A DNA stretch of 64,000 bases, taken from contig JAEURQ010000001.1 of NCBI GenBank assembly GCA_016788425.1, positions 186,001 through 250,000 of the forward strand, written 5' to 3'. Shown one piece after another: positions 18,924-27,068 of this stretch (position 1 is its first letter; every line of letters starts with the position of its first letter). The notes under the pieces are model-generated. The model was not told where the DNA came from. It saw only the letters and a list, made by a program, of their open reading frames with translations, and did no database searches. The DNA is from Chthonomonas sp. Lineage in GTDB: Bacteria > Armatimonadota > Fimbriimonadia > Fimbriimonadales > Fimbriimonadaceae. Made by a program: the position numbers and the translations under genes.

Positions 18924-19766
18924 TTAAGGTTGTTGATGCGAGAGGTAATTGTTCATCTCCTCGATGATTTGCATGCGACGATCCACGATGTTTTGGTTGC
19001 TGCCAAACCGAATTTCGGCTCCATTTGCGTCATTGACCACAAGCGCGTGGAGGCGTCGCCGCTCGCTATCGCGGTAGTTGATCTCGGACACCTTTGCCCC
19101 CTCGGCAAGCGTGTAGGTTCGGCGTGTGTCGAACGGTCCAAAGTAGCGGTGAATCGTTAGCCGCTGGCCGTCGAGATAGACCTCCTCGTTTTGGCACTTG
19201 TCCAGCGACGTACGCACCATGGCCCACGCGCCGACAAACGCCAGGATGCTGCAACCGACCAAGATGAAACTGGTGGGCGCGGTGGCACCGGCGCGGAGGA
19301 ATAACTCCCACCGAACAAGGAAGGCAATGCCGATCATCATCGAGATGCCGAGGAACGCGCCGCCCACCCGCTCCGGCGCGGCGTTTTCGGTTTTGATTCG
19401 CAAGGTCTTAGGCACCACCGACGTGCTTAGTCGCATCTCTTGCCGTGCCTCGCGGTCAGCGAGCGTATCCTGCACCTGGTTGAGGTTGAGAGGCCGCCCC
19501 TGGCGCAGATTTTCCATGGCGTCGAGCAAGTCGTAGCGGATGCTGGGCAACTGCTCAAGCGCGGACATGAGCGTTGTTTTGAGTTCTTCACGAACGTCGG
19601 GTGACGCCTCAACTTGCGACCAAAGTTGACTCCCGCTTGTTCTCAATTGCTCAATCGAATCCAACCGAGCGCGAAGTTGGTCGCCGCTCAGCGGTTTGTC
19701 GTTGAGGATCAGCGGCGCAAACCGGGCAATCCACTGCTCAGATTCGCGTTCGAGGTTTTGATCCAT
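18924..19766 (-). CDS. Two-helix membrane protein, paralogue 1 of a tandem pair
   Basis: Unrecognised 280-residue protein. Residues 1-110 are a charged, soluble, helical domain (ERESEQWIARFAPLILNDKPLS to DREARQEM). Two membrane segments follow (GGAFLGISMMIGIAFLVRWEL and SFILVGCSILAFVGAWAMV), then a C-terminal beta domain of about 80 residues (NEEVYLDGQRLTIHRYFGPFDTRRTY) that looks like the PH-like fold of YdbS/bPH2 proteins, an inference. It is 5 bp downstream of its paralogue and last in a three-gene operon with 20617-21618. The N-terminal domains of the pair are nearly identical while the membrane and C-terminal parts differ. Confidence 0.75.
   Translation of the reverse strand: MDQNLERESEQWIARFAPLILNDKPLSGDQLRARLDSIEQLRTSGSQLWSQVEASPDVREELKTTLMSALEQLPSIRYDLLDAMENLRQGRPLNLNQVQDTLADREARQEMRLSTSVVPKTLRIKTENAAPERVGGAFLGISMMIGIAFLVRWELFLRAGATAPTSFILVGCSILAFVGAWAMVRTSLDKCQNEEVYLDGQRLTIHRYFGPFDTRRTYTLAEGAKVSEINYRDSERRRLHALVVNDANGAEIRFGSNQNIVDRRMQIIEEMNNYLSHQQP
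19530..19762 (-). repeat. Near-identical N-terminal coding block, copy 1
   Basis: The DNA encoding the first 75-80 residues of this paralogue matches 20370-20604 closely over its whole length, far more than the rest of the two genes. This marks a recent duplication or gene conversion. Confidence 0.75.
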
Positions 19767-19771
19767 GAGCG

Positions 19772-20608
19772 TTAAATGGCCGGATGAGTAATGTGATTAT
19801 TCATCTCGTTCATGATCTCGATTCGCCGACTGATGCTCGTGGCGTAGTGCGCAAACTTCACCACCGAGCCGTTCGCCACGGTGATGCGGAGCGCATTCAC
19901 CGTCTCATGACCTTGTTGAAAACTGATATCCACAACCCTTGAATCAGGGCCAAGTTTATACTGCTTTGTGCTGTCGTAAAGGCCAAAGTATCGGCGAATG
20001 TACAGCGTGTTATCCTCAATCCTAACCTCTTCGTTCACGCAGCCCCGCCACGTTTGGGCGGCCAGCACAAGGAGCGCGATGACAATCAGCACCGCAAACC
20101 AAACGGGAATCATTTCATTGGTCGGCAGTTTTTGGGCCGCCGACGCTTCGTCGCTGCAGGATCGAAACATGACAAAGGCGGCCACGAACAGGGTGAAAAG
20201 CCATCCAAACACCGACGAGGTTTTCCCAAAACTGGTCTCCGCCGTGTAAACGTTCGGCACGACCGAAGTCGCCACTTCCATTTCCTGACGGGCCTCCCGC
20301 TCGGCGAGGGTGTCCTGGAGCTTGTCGAGATTCAGCGGATGTCCTTGCCGCTGGTTCTCGAGCGCGTCGAGCAAGTCGTAGCGGATGCTCGGCAACTGCT
20401 CAAGCGCGGACATCAGCGTTGTTTTGAGTTCTTCGCGCACGTCGGGCGACGCCTCAACTTGCGACCAAAGCTGCTTGCCGCTAACTCTCAGTTGTTCAAT
20501 CGAATCCAGCCGGGCGCGTAGTTGCTCCGCGCTCAGCGGTTTGTCGTTGAGGATCAGCGGCGCGAACCGGGCGACCCACTGCTCAGATTCGCGTTCGAGG
20601 TCAGCCAT
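19772..20608 (-). CDS. Two-helix membrane protein, paralogue 2 of a tandem pair
   Basis: Unrecognised 278-residue protein with the same plan as its neighbour: helical N-terminal domain (ERESEQWVARFAPLILNDKPLS to EREARQEM), two membrane segments (VFGWLFTLFVAAFVMF and IPVWFAVLIVIALLVLAAQ) and a C-terminal beta domain (NEEVRIEDNTLYIRRYFGLYD). The membrane segments share no obvious identity with those of paralogue 1, and the C-terminal domain is only distantly alike. It lies 8 bp after the zinc-ribbon gene and 5 bp before paralogue 1, so the three products probably work together. The cellular role is unknown. Confidence 0.75.
   Translation of the reverse strand: MADLERESEQWVARFAPLILNDKPLSAEQLRARLDSIEQLRVSGKQLWSQVEASPDVREELKTTLMSALEQLPSIRYDLLDALENQRQGHPLNLDKLQDTLAEREARQEMEVATSVVPNVYTAETSFGKTSSVFGWLFTLFVAAFVMFRSCSDEASAAQKLPTNEMIPVWFAVLIVIALLVLAAQTWRGCVNEEVRIEDNTLYIRRYFGLYDSTKQYKLGPDSRVVDISFQQGHETVNALRITVANGSVVKFAHYATSISRRIEIMNEMNNHITHPAI
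20370..20604 (-). repeat. Near-identical N-terminal coding block, copy 2
   Basis: Partner of 19530-19762. The two blocks are in direct orientation about 840 bp apart. Confidence 0.75.
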
Positions 20609-20616
20609 TCCCGCGA

Positions 20617-21618
20617 TTAGTGTCCGCCGATTCCGAGGCCCACCATGCTGCCGCCGCCGACATCGCCGGTGATGCTAAACCACTTGTCGGTGAGATACTT
20701 GCGGCAGATCGCGGCGACGGTTCCATCCGCCGCGCGAGCCTTTACATCAATGCGGCCACCGCTGGTGTTTTGCATGCCTTGCAGGGCGGTGAGCGCGGCC
20801 TCCGGACTTTCGCTGGCTTGCTCGATGGCGTCCAGAATCTCGCTGATCATGGTGCCGGTCTCATGGAGCGCAGTCTGATATTCGTTGCGCAGGGTTACGC
20901 ACTCGGCTGGCGGGTTCACCGCCAAAAACTGTTCTTCGAGAGTTCGCCAATCGCGACGCTTGTCTTCGGCGCTGCGCCCCACCTTTTTGGAAGGCGCGTC
21001 TTCCGGATCGGGCGTCGGAGCGTCGGGGTCAGCGAGGTCGCGGACGGCATCAATGCCGCCGCGCAGACCGCTCATTTCAGTGAACATAATGAGCGCCTCG
21101 CTCAGCTGTTTGCGCGACATCTTTACGCGCATGCCCTCGATGCGCTCGACATGTTGCAGGTAGGCCAGCACGTCGGCGGGCATGGAAATCTTCTCGGCTT
21201 GGGTTTGCGTGAGGTTGCTGGCCGGTGGCGTTCCGTAAACCCGGAGCAACTCGGCTTGCGGCGCCGTGCCCTCAGTGCGGAGGAGTTGGCCCGAGTTTGC
21301 GGTGCCGTCGGCTTTCAGCAATTCGCCCGTGTTTGCGGTGCCGTCGGCAAGCAACACTTTTGGCTTGACTGGTTCGCCCGGCACCTTGAGTAATCCACTG
21401 CGAAACGCAAAGAACAGCGAGCCGGCACCAATGAGCAAGAACCCGAGGACGAGGGGCCAAAGCGGCTGCTTGCGCGGCACAAAAGCACCCGGCACGGGCG
21501 CGGCTTGCGCTACCGGGACCGCCGCTTTGGGAGCGACGGCCGCGGCGAGGCCGTGACCGCAGTTGGGGCAAAAACGGCTAGCCTGCGCGAGGCGATAATG
21601 GCACTTGGGGCATTCCAT
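20617..21618 (-). CDS. Zinc-ribbon single-pass membrane protein with 12-residue repeats
   Basis: Unrecognised 333-residue protein. It opens with a zinc ribbon of the double CxxC type (MECPKCHYRLAQASRFCPNCGHG), then an Ala/Pro linker, a membrane helix at about residues 52-73 (PLWPLVLGFLLIGAGSLFFAF) and four imperfect 12-residue repeats (residues 88-135, for example VLLADGTANTGE and LLKADGTANSGQ). The C-terminal 190 residues are helical and end in a glycine-rich tail (GGGSMVGLGIGGH). The start at 21618 puts the zinc ribbon first; much longer in-frame starts would run across the divergent methyltransferase gene. It heads an operon with the two paralogous membrane proteins. Confidence 0.75.
   Translation of the reverse strand: MECPKCHYRLAQASRFCPNCGHGLAAAVAPKAAVPVAQAAPVPGAFVPRKQPLWPLVLGFLLIGAGSLFFAFRSGLLKVPGEPVKPKVLLADGTANTGELLKADGTANSGQLLRTEGTAPQAELLRVYGTPPASNLTQTQAEKISMPADVLAYLQHVERIEGMRVKMSRKQLSEALIMFTEMSGLRGGIDAVRDLADPDAPTPDPEDAPSKKVGRSAEDKRRDWRTLEEQFLAVNPPAECVTLRNEYQTALHETGTMISEILDAIEQASESPEAALTALQGMQNTSGGRIDVKARAADGTVAAICRKYLTDKWFSITGDVGGGSMVGLGIGGH
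21214..21357 (-). repeat. Four 36-bp coding repeats in the zinc-ribbon protein
   Basis: These encode residues 88-135 with the pattern LLxxxGTAxxxE/Q. The first two units are nearly identical, the last is degenerate. Confidence 0.7.
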
Positions 21619-24731: not shown

Positions 24732-27068
24732 ATGAGCCAAGTTGGCGAAATTCTCGATTCCATGGACTACGGTCCCGCGCCGGAAGCGGCGAACTTTGCC
24801 AACGAATGGCTGGATAAGCACGGGCGAAAGTTCGGCCACTACTTGGGTGGAAAGTGGGTCCCCGCCGAATCTCATTTCGCCAGCATCTGCCCGAGCACCG
24901 GCAAGGAACTCGCGCAGATCGGTCAGGGCTCCAGCGCGCAAGTGGACGAAGCCGTGAAGGCCGCTCGGGAAGGGCTCAAAGCCTGGACCAAACTCGGCCC
25001 CGCGGGTCGAAGCCGCGTGCTCTACGCGTTGGCGCGACAGATTCAAAAGCACTCACGGCTATTCGCCGTCCTCGAATCGCTCGACAACGGCAAGCCGATC
25101 CGCGAGACCCGCGACATTGACATTCCCTTGGTCGCGCGACACTTTTACTATCACGCGGGTTGGGCGCGGCTCATCGAAACCGAGTTTCCCGAGTACGAAA
25201 ACGTGGGGGTTTGCGGGCAGATTATCCCGTGGAATTTCCCGCTGCTGATGCTGAGTTGGAAGATCGCCCCGGCCCTGGCGGCGGGCAACGCGGTCATTCT
25301 CAAGCCGGCGGAATTCACTTCGCTGAGCGCATTGTTGTTCGCCGAAATTTGCCATCAAGTCGGTGTCCCGGCGGGCGTGGTCAACATCATCACGGGCGAT
25401 GGCGAGACCGGCAAGGCGATGGTGGCGCACGAGGGTATCGACAAGATTGCCTTTACGGGCAGCACCGAGGTTGGTCGTATTCTGCGGCGCGTCACGGCAG
25501 GCACGGGCAAAAAGCTCTCGCTAGAACTCGGCGGAAAGTCACCGTTTATCGTGTTCGAAGACGCGGACGTGGACAGCGCCATTGAAGGCATTGTGGATGC
25601 GATCTGGTTTAACCAGGGCCAGGTCTGCTGCGCTGGTTCGCGGTTGCTGGTGCAGGAAAGCATCGCCGATCGCTTCTACAAAAAGCTGCGTCGTCGCATG
25701 GAATCGCTACGCGTCGGTGATCCGCTCGATAAGGCGGTGGATATCGGCGCAATTGTGGACGCGACTCAACTGGCCCGCATCACCGAGCTGGTGGGCACCG
25801 GCGTGAAGGAAGGCGCGAAGTGCTTCCAGCCGAAGTGCAAGTTCCCCGAAGGCGGCTGGTTCTACCCGCCGACCCTGCTGACCGATGTCGAGCCGAGTTC
25901 GACGGTGGCGCAAGTTGAAATCTTTGGCCCCGTGCTGGTGGCCATGACGTTCCGCACTCCCGCCGAAGCGGTGGCTTTGGCAAACAACACCGTTTACGGG
26001 TTGGCCAGTTCGGTGTGGACGCAAAACCTCGACGTGGCGCACGATATCGCGGCGCAGATCAAGGCCGGCACGGTGTGGGTCAACTGCACCAACCAGTTCG
26101 ATGCGAACGCGGGTTTCGGCGGTTATCGCGAAAGCGGCTTCGGTCGCGAGAGCGGTCGCGAGGGGATGTTCGAATATCTCCGGTGGCGCGCGCCCTATCT
26201 GCCTGCAGGCAATCTCGCCGAGATCAAGGAGTCGCCCAGCAACGGCGCGCTCGACCGCACGCACAAGCTGTTCATCGGCGGCAAGCAAGCGCGTCCCGAC
26301 GGCGGTTATTCAATCTCACTGCCGGTTGCTTCGGGCGGAGTCGTCGAGGTGTCGCGCGGCAACCGCAAGGACATTCGCAACGCGGTCGAAGCCGCGGCCA
26401 CTGCGGCTCCGGCTTGGGGCGCCCAAACCGGTTACCTCCGGTCGCAGATTCTGTACTTCCTCGCGGAGAACATGGAGGCGAATCGCGCCGCTCTTGAGAC
26501 CGCGCTCACGGACCGCGGTGGTTCCGGTGACGAAGTGACGAAGGCCATCGACGCGGCGTTGCTGTTCGCCGGATGGGCGGATAAGCACGAGGGCACGGTC
26601 CACCCGGTGCCTCTGCGCGCCGTCACGTACACCCGCCCCGAGGTGCTCGGCGTGGTGGGCGTGGTGTGCGAAGACGCGCAGCCGTTGCTCGGATTTGTGA
26701 GCTCGGTGGCGGCAAACCTGGCGATGGGCAACGCGGTGGTCGTGATCCCGAGTCGGCACAACCCGCTCGCCGCGATGGAAATGATGCGCGTGATTGAGGC
26801 TTCGGACATTCCCTCCGGCGTGCTGAACATCGTGACGGGGCAGATCGATGAGCTGGTGCCCGACCTGGCCGGTCACGCCGGTGTGGATGCCCTTTGGTGC
26901 TTCGCCGACGCCGAAATCTGCGAGCAGGTCGAGCAGATGAGCGTGAGCAACCTCAAGCAAACGTGGTGTCTGCATGGTCATTCGCTCGATTGGACCAAAG
27001 CCCCCAGTGGCGAAATCTTGCGCCGAGCAACCCAGCTCAAGAACATTTGGGTTCCGTACGGTGCTTAA
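24732..27068 (+). CDS. Two-domain aldehyde dehydrogenase, ALDH16 type
   Basis: A 778-residue protein. Residues about 40-500 are a full NAD(P)-dependent aldehyde dehydrogenase: IIPWNFPLLMLSWK, KPAEFTSLSALLFAE, FTGSTEVGR, the general-base glutamate in LSLELGGKSPF and the catalytic cysteine in NQGQVCCAGSR (about C299/C300), then EIFGPVL. Residues about 510-778 are a second, shorter ALDH-like domain (HKLFIGGKQARPDGGYS, RPEVLGVVGVVCEDAQPLLGF) lacking a catalytic cysteine segment. This fusion is the bacterial ALDH16 arrangement. The natural aldehyde is unknown. The downstream lipoprotein gene follows at 52 bp. Confidence 0.9.
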   Translation: MSQVGEILDSMDYGPAPEAANFANEWLDKHGRKFGHYLGGKWVPAESHFASICPSTGKELAQIGQGSSAQVDEAVKAAREGLKAWTKLGPAGRSRVLYALARQIQKHSRLFAVLESLDNGKPIRETRDIDIPLVARHFYYHAGWARLIETEFPEYENVGVCGQIIPWNFPLLMLSWKIAPALAAGNAVILKPAEFTSLSALLFAEICHQVGVPAGVVNIITGDGETGKAMVAHEGIDKIAFTGSTEVGRILRRVTAGTGKKLSLELGGKSPFIVFEDADVDSAIEGIVDAIWFNQGQVCCAGSRLLVQESIADRFYKKLRRRMESLRVGDPLDKAVDIGAIVDATQLARITELVGTGVKEGAKCFQPKCKFPEGGWFYPPTLLTDVEPSSTVAQVEIFGPVLVAMTFRTPAEAVALANNTVYGLASSVWTQNLDVAHDIAAQIKAGTVWVNCTNQFDANAGFGGYRESGFGRESGREGMFEYLRWRAPYLPAGNLAEIKESPSNGALDRTHKLFIGGKQARPDGGYSISLPVASGGVVEVSRGNRKDIRNAVEAAATAAPAWGAQTGYLRSQILYFLAENMEANRAALETALTDRGGSGDEVTKAIDAALLFAGWADKHEGTVHPVPLRAVTYTRPEVLGVVGVVCEDAQPLLGFVSSVAANLAMGNAVVVIPSRHNPLAAMEMMRVIEASDIPSGVLNIVTGQIDELVPDLAGHAGVDALWCFADAEICEQVEQMSVSNLKQTWCLHGHSLDWTKAPSGEILRRATQLKNIWVPYGA

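Follow-up and report, generated by a model that had tools for sequence, protein, structure and literature searches.

A tandem pair of Armatimonadota membrane proteins with near-identical first thirds and a predicted PH-like barrel split by a membrane hairpin

The window, by which we mean the whole 64,000-nucleotide stretch of Chthonomonas sp. DNA that was analysed, contains a compact run of three genes, here called A, B and C (Table 1). All lie on the same strand, with gaps of 8 nt between A and B and of 5 nt between B and C; such short gaps on one strand make co-transcription likely, and the three genes are probably co-transcribed. The initial annotation of a zinc-ribbon, single-pass protein followed by two two-helix proteins was confirmed in its coordinates and segments: a single hydrophobic segment is found in A, and two hydrophobic regions in each of B and C. 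The start of A is an ATG at 21618, within a longer open frame. Promoter and terminator counts stood at the level of shuffled sequence and were uninformative. Elsewhere in the window (24732-27068), a 778-aa ORF apparently carries two tandem aldehyde-dehydrogenase domains, as recognised by eye.

Table 1. Coordinates, within the window, of the three genes and of the segments discussed in the text
Feature	Position	Strand	Description
Gene A	20617-21618	-	333-aa ORF; zinc ribbon (residues 3-24), one membrane helix (residues 53-71), then a C-terminal domain
Gene B	19772-20608	-	278-aa ORF; N-domain, then two membrane helices and a C-terminal part
Candidate conversion tract in B	20366-20602	-	codons 3-81
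Gene C	18924-19766	-	280-aa ORF
Candidate conversion tract in C	19521-19757	-	codons 4-82
Predicted membrane hairpin of C	19194-19376	-	residues 131-191; keeps 2 of the 14 motif residues

The N-terminus of A matches Zn_Ribbon_1 (PF13240) at 26.8 bits, above the cut-off of 25. Its matches to PHROGs are confined to residues 1-29, and its best match among solved-structure sequences has an E of 0.13. Two cysteines of the C-terminal domain, C240 and C305, are invariant in all 13 aligned members and could form a disulfide outside the cytoplasm. The zinc ribbon is absent from three aligned members, as translated.

B and C are paralogous and 50% identical overall. They share a DNA repeat of 256 bp at 88% identity (E 7.8e-90), which was the sole second match in the 2.67-Mb genome for a query of 801 bases. 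It had been proposed that the first 110 residues are nearly identical, also at the DNA level. The repeat is real, but near-identity at the DNA level is limited to a tract of ~79 codons (codons 3-81 of B), and amino-acid identity falls from 91% over codons 1-82 to 68% over codons 83-120. Synonymous divergence (pS) between the two genes is 0.31 in codons 1-82, 0.85 in codons 83-120, and saturated beyond. Fisher tests on rounded counts separate the first block from the second at p 1.7e-6 and from the whole remainder at p 2.6e-10. A change point lies at codon 81 of B, with third positions matching at 63 of 79 codons inside the tract and at 12 of 44 after it, a contrast that was matched by 0 of 2000 permutations. 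In the larger blocks pN stays below pS (0.06 vs 0.31, 0.19 vs 0.85 and 0.53 vs 0.77), and at the first membrane helix (segment from codon 131) the two are about equal, 0.69 vs 0.65.

Did the first thirds of B and C stay alike, or were they made alike? Both answers had been offered at the outset, the first as a cytosolic surface shared by the two proteins and held under strong constraint, the second as gene conversion. The former would place the N-domain under exceptional purifying selection, with both proteins binding one cytosolic partner. The level of amino-acid identity retained in codons 83-120 at saturated synonymous sites indicates some protein constraint just outside the tract, and is in keeping with this idea; however, protein constraint alone does not lower synonymous divergence, and the jump in pS at codon 82 speaks against it as well. 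As a control, nine orthologue pairs of the B/C family were compared, seven of them diverged enough to inform. In these seven, two members of which recur and all of which lie close to saturation, pS of the N-region ranged from 0.57 to 0.83; the pooled values were 0.72 for the N-region and 0.69 for the remainder (p 0.27), so that the N-region is not slow. The two closest pairs, pooled, gave a slightly lower N-region value (0.087 vs 0.152 for the rest, p 0.087); this may reflect a mild synonymous constraint, favourable to the shared surface but far short of the contrast between B and C (0.31 vs 0.79). The N-domains of the other tandem sets, the pair in genome G002 and the triple in G135, are only 27-47% identical and not homogenised, and the N-domain ranks below the membrane hairpin in family conservation. 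A protected partner surface is therefore not favoured as an explanation of why the N-termini are so alike, and we hold it to be improbable.

Gene conversion fits better, since the diverged orthologue pairs show no synonymous constraint, and it is supported by the step in pS and by the change point together with this control. From the sequence comparison, the first thirds of B and C appear to have been homogenised after duplication, most simply by gene conversion. The conversion was not recent, as dS within codons 1-82 is 0.39, and a close relative carrying B and C would be needed to tell which copy was the donor. The branch uniting B and C against the rest of the family has support of 99, 100 and 100 in the N-terminal, C-terminal and barrel-region trees, respectively; because the two group together in all three, the duplication is lineage-specific.

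With regard to distribution, a search with B found matches in 16 of 61 genomes, the window's own included, and a search with A in 60 of the 61, 48 of these having one match each. The family profile of B and C matched 41 of 291 genomes of the phylum; these profiles were built mainly from motif-bearing members, and motif-less single-copy relatives may escape them. In a separate scan, 14 named records were obtained, titled Armatimonadetes, Fimbriimonas, Fimbriimonadales, Chthonomonas or “bacterium”. Relatives of B and C mostly occur without a tandem copy: among the 41 genomes, part of which were fetched, four showed tandem sets, namely the window's, G002, G135 with three copies, and G153, whose second copy is truncated. 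Among the clusters listed, and leaving antisense shadow frames aside, no shared neighbour of the family recurs in more than three loci.

Another question is whether A belongs to the same system. The common strand and the short gaps would suit a functional membrane complex of A, B and C, specific to this lineage. However, this layout was seen only here: none of 44 stretches fetched around other B/C-family loci (from roughly 32 different genomes or records, short contigs among them) holds A. A conserved three-gene neighbourhood, which the initial annotation had proposed to look for, is thus rejected. Relatives do have a gene of the B/C type while their A lies at another place, and such relatives are what had been named beforehand as counting against the three-gene idea. 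In addition, 44 of the 61 genomes (42 when the profile matches in G022 and G036 are added) hold A without a detected B/C gene, one of them being the same-genus genome G001 (87% complete). Homology of A to B and C was likewise rejected, with hhalign probabilities of 0.85% and 1.6%, although a complex would not need such similarity. A, B and C are probably not a conserved three-protein complex, and we find a complex confined to this lineage hard to credit as well.

The neighbourhood of A in other genomes offers a different picture. In G001, A is divergent to a gene of ~175 aa without a Pfam match at the cut-off. This gene is present in 54 of the 61 genomes, and the divergent pair (for example L057:5938-7521 and relatives) is kept in 27 of the 33 same-family genomes that have both genes, by a hand count from coordinates; in the window's genome, the ~175-aa gene lies on another contig than A. 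Since the pair is divergent elsewhere and split here, the order A-B-C is best read as a local rearrangement. The zinc-ribbon protein appears to be a chance neighbour of B and C, and the ~175-aa protein is possibly its real partner. In four genomes (L058, L059, L060, L063) A lies near genes that we take to be FHA- and VWA-like, and in five (L067-L069, L071, L072) near genes presumably related to type IV pilus assembly.

Within the B/C family, conservation peaks in the membrane hairpin, contrary to what the initial annotation led one to expect: over 31 copies, the mean frequency of the top residue is 0.65 in the hairpin, 0.55 in the linker, 0.47 in the N-domain and 0.42 in the barrel. A motif of 14 residues stands out there, in outline W..FT..H....IGGM, followed by FY..F in the second helix. 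Its positions were chosen among columns invariant in seven of the 31 copies, so that the count is circular for those seven; at least 11 of the 14 residues are present in all 31 non-secondary copies. Besides B and C, 35 copies were counted, and the remaining four, which are secondary tandem copies, keep 2-5 residues; B keeps three. Of the 41 genomes, 30 supplied sequences, the window's among them; L090 and L091 were used as well and, by contig number, look like G072 and G074 of the same set. The other nine genomes (11 if L090 and L091 differ) are contig-edge fragments or were not fetched. In G135 (L122:6905-9927), where three members stand in tandem, both additional copies lack the motif and carry a long insert that separates the membrane helices.

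What follows from the loss of this motif in B and C? Taken with the rise of pN to the level of pS at the first membrane helix, it suggests an altered client or relaxed constraint, and B and C probably have altered or relaxed clients. A stronger version of this reasoning would make B and C duplicates under relaxed selection that retain little function. The hallmark motif is gone from both copies, the window's genome yielded neither a third family member nor a canonical copy, and pN does reach pS around the first helix. Yet both frames are intact and full-length, each still with its two hydrophobic regions, and in the larger blocks pN is below pS; such wholesale decay is unlikely.

A fold for the family was obtained by prediction. 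The AlphaFold model of C, from 18 sequences, has a mean pLDDT of 85.6 and a pTM of 0.54; that of L078, a canonical member, has the same order, with 84.8 and 0.48, and the fold of B is carried over from the model of its paralogue C. In C, a three-helix bundle plus one further helix forms the N-terminal part; a strand (121-126), two helices (131-159 and 164-191), six strands (193-254) and a last helix (261-278) follow. The hairpin thus interrupts a predicted PH-like barrel after its first strand, and a seven-strand barrel of this kind, capped by a C-terminal helix, is the order found in both models. For L078, the assignment gives a single helix run (148-209) for the hairpin.

Comparison with solved structures is consistent with this description. 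Plain PH domains align with C over 86-105 residues of model residues ~118-280 at Z 7-8 (ranges only), suggesting that the hairpin is skipped in these alignments and that the strand before it takes the first position of the barrel. Many PH and PTB chains are found at Z 7-9 against the models, scores to be read with the aligner's note that Z 7-8 can be background. The N-terminal bundle resembles chains of CorA, ZntB and spectrin repeats, with Z about 10; we take this as generic three-helix similarity.

Collectively, these data are brought together in one account, covering the evolutionary history and the split-barrel fold, that we consider moderately probable. B and C are tandem copies, duplicated in this lineage, of an Armatimonadota membrane-protein family, each copy predicted to consist of a three-helix bundle and then a PH-like barrel split by a two-helix hairpin after its first strand. 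After duplication, the hairpin and barrel diverged to saturation, and the first ~80 codons would have been re-homogenised by conversion. A would be an old gene of the order, brought upstream of B and C by local rearrangement. The bundle and barrel probably sit on the same side of the short hairpin, in the cytosol, although the charge bias around the membrane helices is weak, and together they would act as a membrane-anchored platform for docking on the cytosolic side. By analogy, this platform might serve as an assembly factor, a scaffold for a membrane client as EROS is for NOX2, a function that we regard as possible but doubtful. Within this account, the sequences show the duplication, the tract, the distribution and the loss of the motif; the fold is a prediction, and topology, co-transcription and function are inferred. 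Still further from the data is the idea that the family members are EROS-like bacterial assembly factors in which the W..FT..H motif contacts a membrane redox client or binds its cofactor, duplication repeatedly frees motif-losing copies for new clients, and conversion, in the present case, keeps only the soluble bundle matched; we see little likelihood in this full scheme.

The picture of a three-gene complex thus gives way to one of partial conversion, in which one domain was homogenised while synonymous sites in the others became saturated. A little-known membrane family of the Armatimonadota comes to light as well. Neither B nor C matched a Pfam or NCBIfam family at its cut-off, B, C and L078 had no match in PHROGs, and the best E for B and C against solved-structure sequences was 0.0096. 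A PADLOC scan gave no match, and a viral fold library returned nothing at E 0.001. In the literature searched, from which subscription papers were mostly absent, nothing treats the family by title or abstract start.

Which known systems, then, come closest? One is DUF2244 (PF10003), weak matches to which are found in seven of 16 family members at E up to 0.5. By coordinates, eight of the 30 matches to it in the phylum at E up to 0.01 fall on the B/C family, and hhalign aligns the two over 117 columns with an E of 6.6e-4 and a probability of 27%. The family differs in that its matches stay below the Pfam cut-off (best 25.7 vs 27 bits) and in its extra N-terminal part of ~110 residues. Only one of the 291 genomes, G082, exceeds the 27-bit cut-off, and it has no B/C-family match itself; the window's genome gave no DUF2244 match at E 0.001, with a positive Caulobacter control. 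On these alignments, DUF2244 is a sub-threshold relative of the family. Elsewhere in the phylum, at loci L138, L140, L141 and L142, DUF2244-like genes adjoin a gene that we assume to be PspA-like and a small, presumably J domain-like gene. In the part of the source available to us, bacterial DUF2244 proteins are described as having two membrane helices and, after these, a putative PH-like portion (PMC2817789).

Another, by fold, is EROS (CYBC1; DUF4564), the chaperone of NADPH oxidase 2. The photosystem I assembly protein Ycf4, published as an EROS orthologue in the portion of that report consulted (PMC5379978), gave no match with the PF02392 model in the window's genome, the sole genome searched, with a positive Synechococcus control. 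For C, the only Foldseek match at E 0.001 or below is EROS (8kei_D, E 7.9e-4), and VIA-align superposes 143 residues of model residues 118-278 at Z 9.9 and rmsd 4.1, making EROS the best match to the full predicted layout. L078 aligns with EROS over 142 residues at Z 8.1 and rmsd 5.3, tied with ordinary PH domains, and Foldseek listed no match for it at E 0.001, nor EROS, among the best 50 rows. A split PH barrel is therefore supported in both models, and a specific link to EROS in one.

Differences exist as well. In EROS, two strands precede the hairpin, in the C model one; an N-terminal bundle is not described for EROS in the part of the source seen (PMC9767466); and no sequence match connects the two, as a profile of the C-terminal part returned six solved chains up to E 10 without EROS, and the EROS family is absent among the Pfam families listed. 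What they share is a PH-like barrel split by a two-helix hairpin. In the same partial source, EROS is presented as a PH domain with two inserted membrane helices, a layout taken from an AlphaFold model and termed hitherto unobserved in known structures, with PIGH as the other predicted case (PMC9767466). The B/C family would count among such membrane PH-like proteins and, should the fold be confirmed, the split-PH architecture that EROS and PIGH are predicted to have could be studied in a simple bacterial setting.
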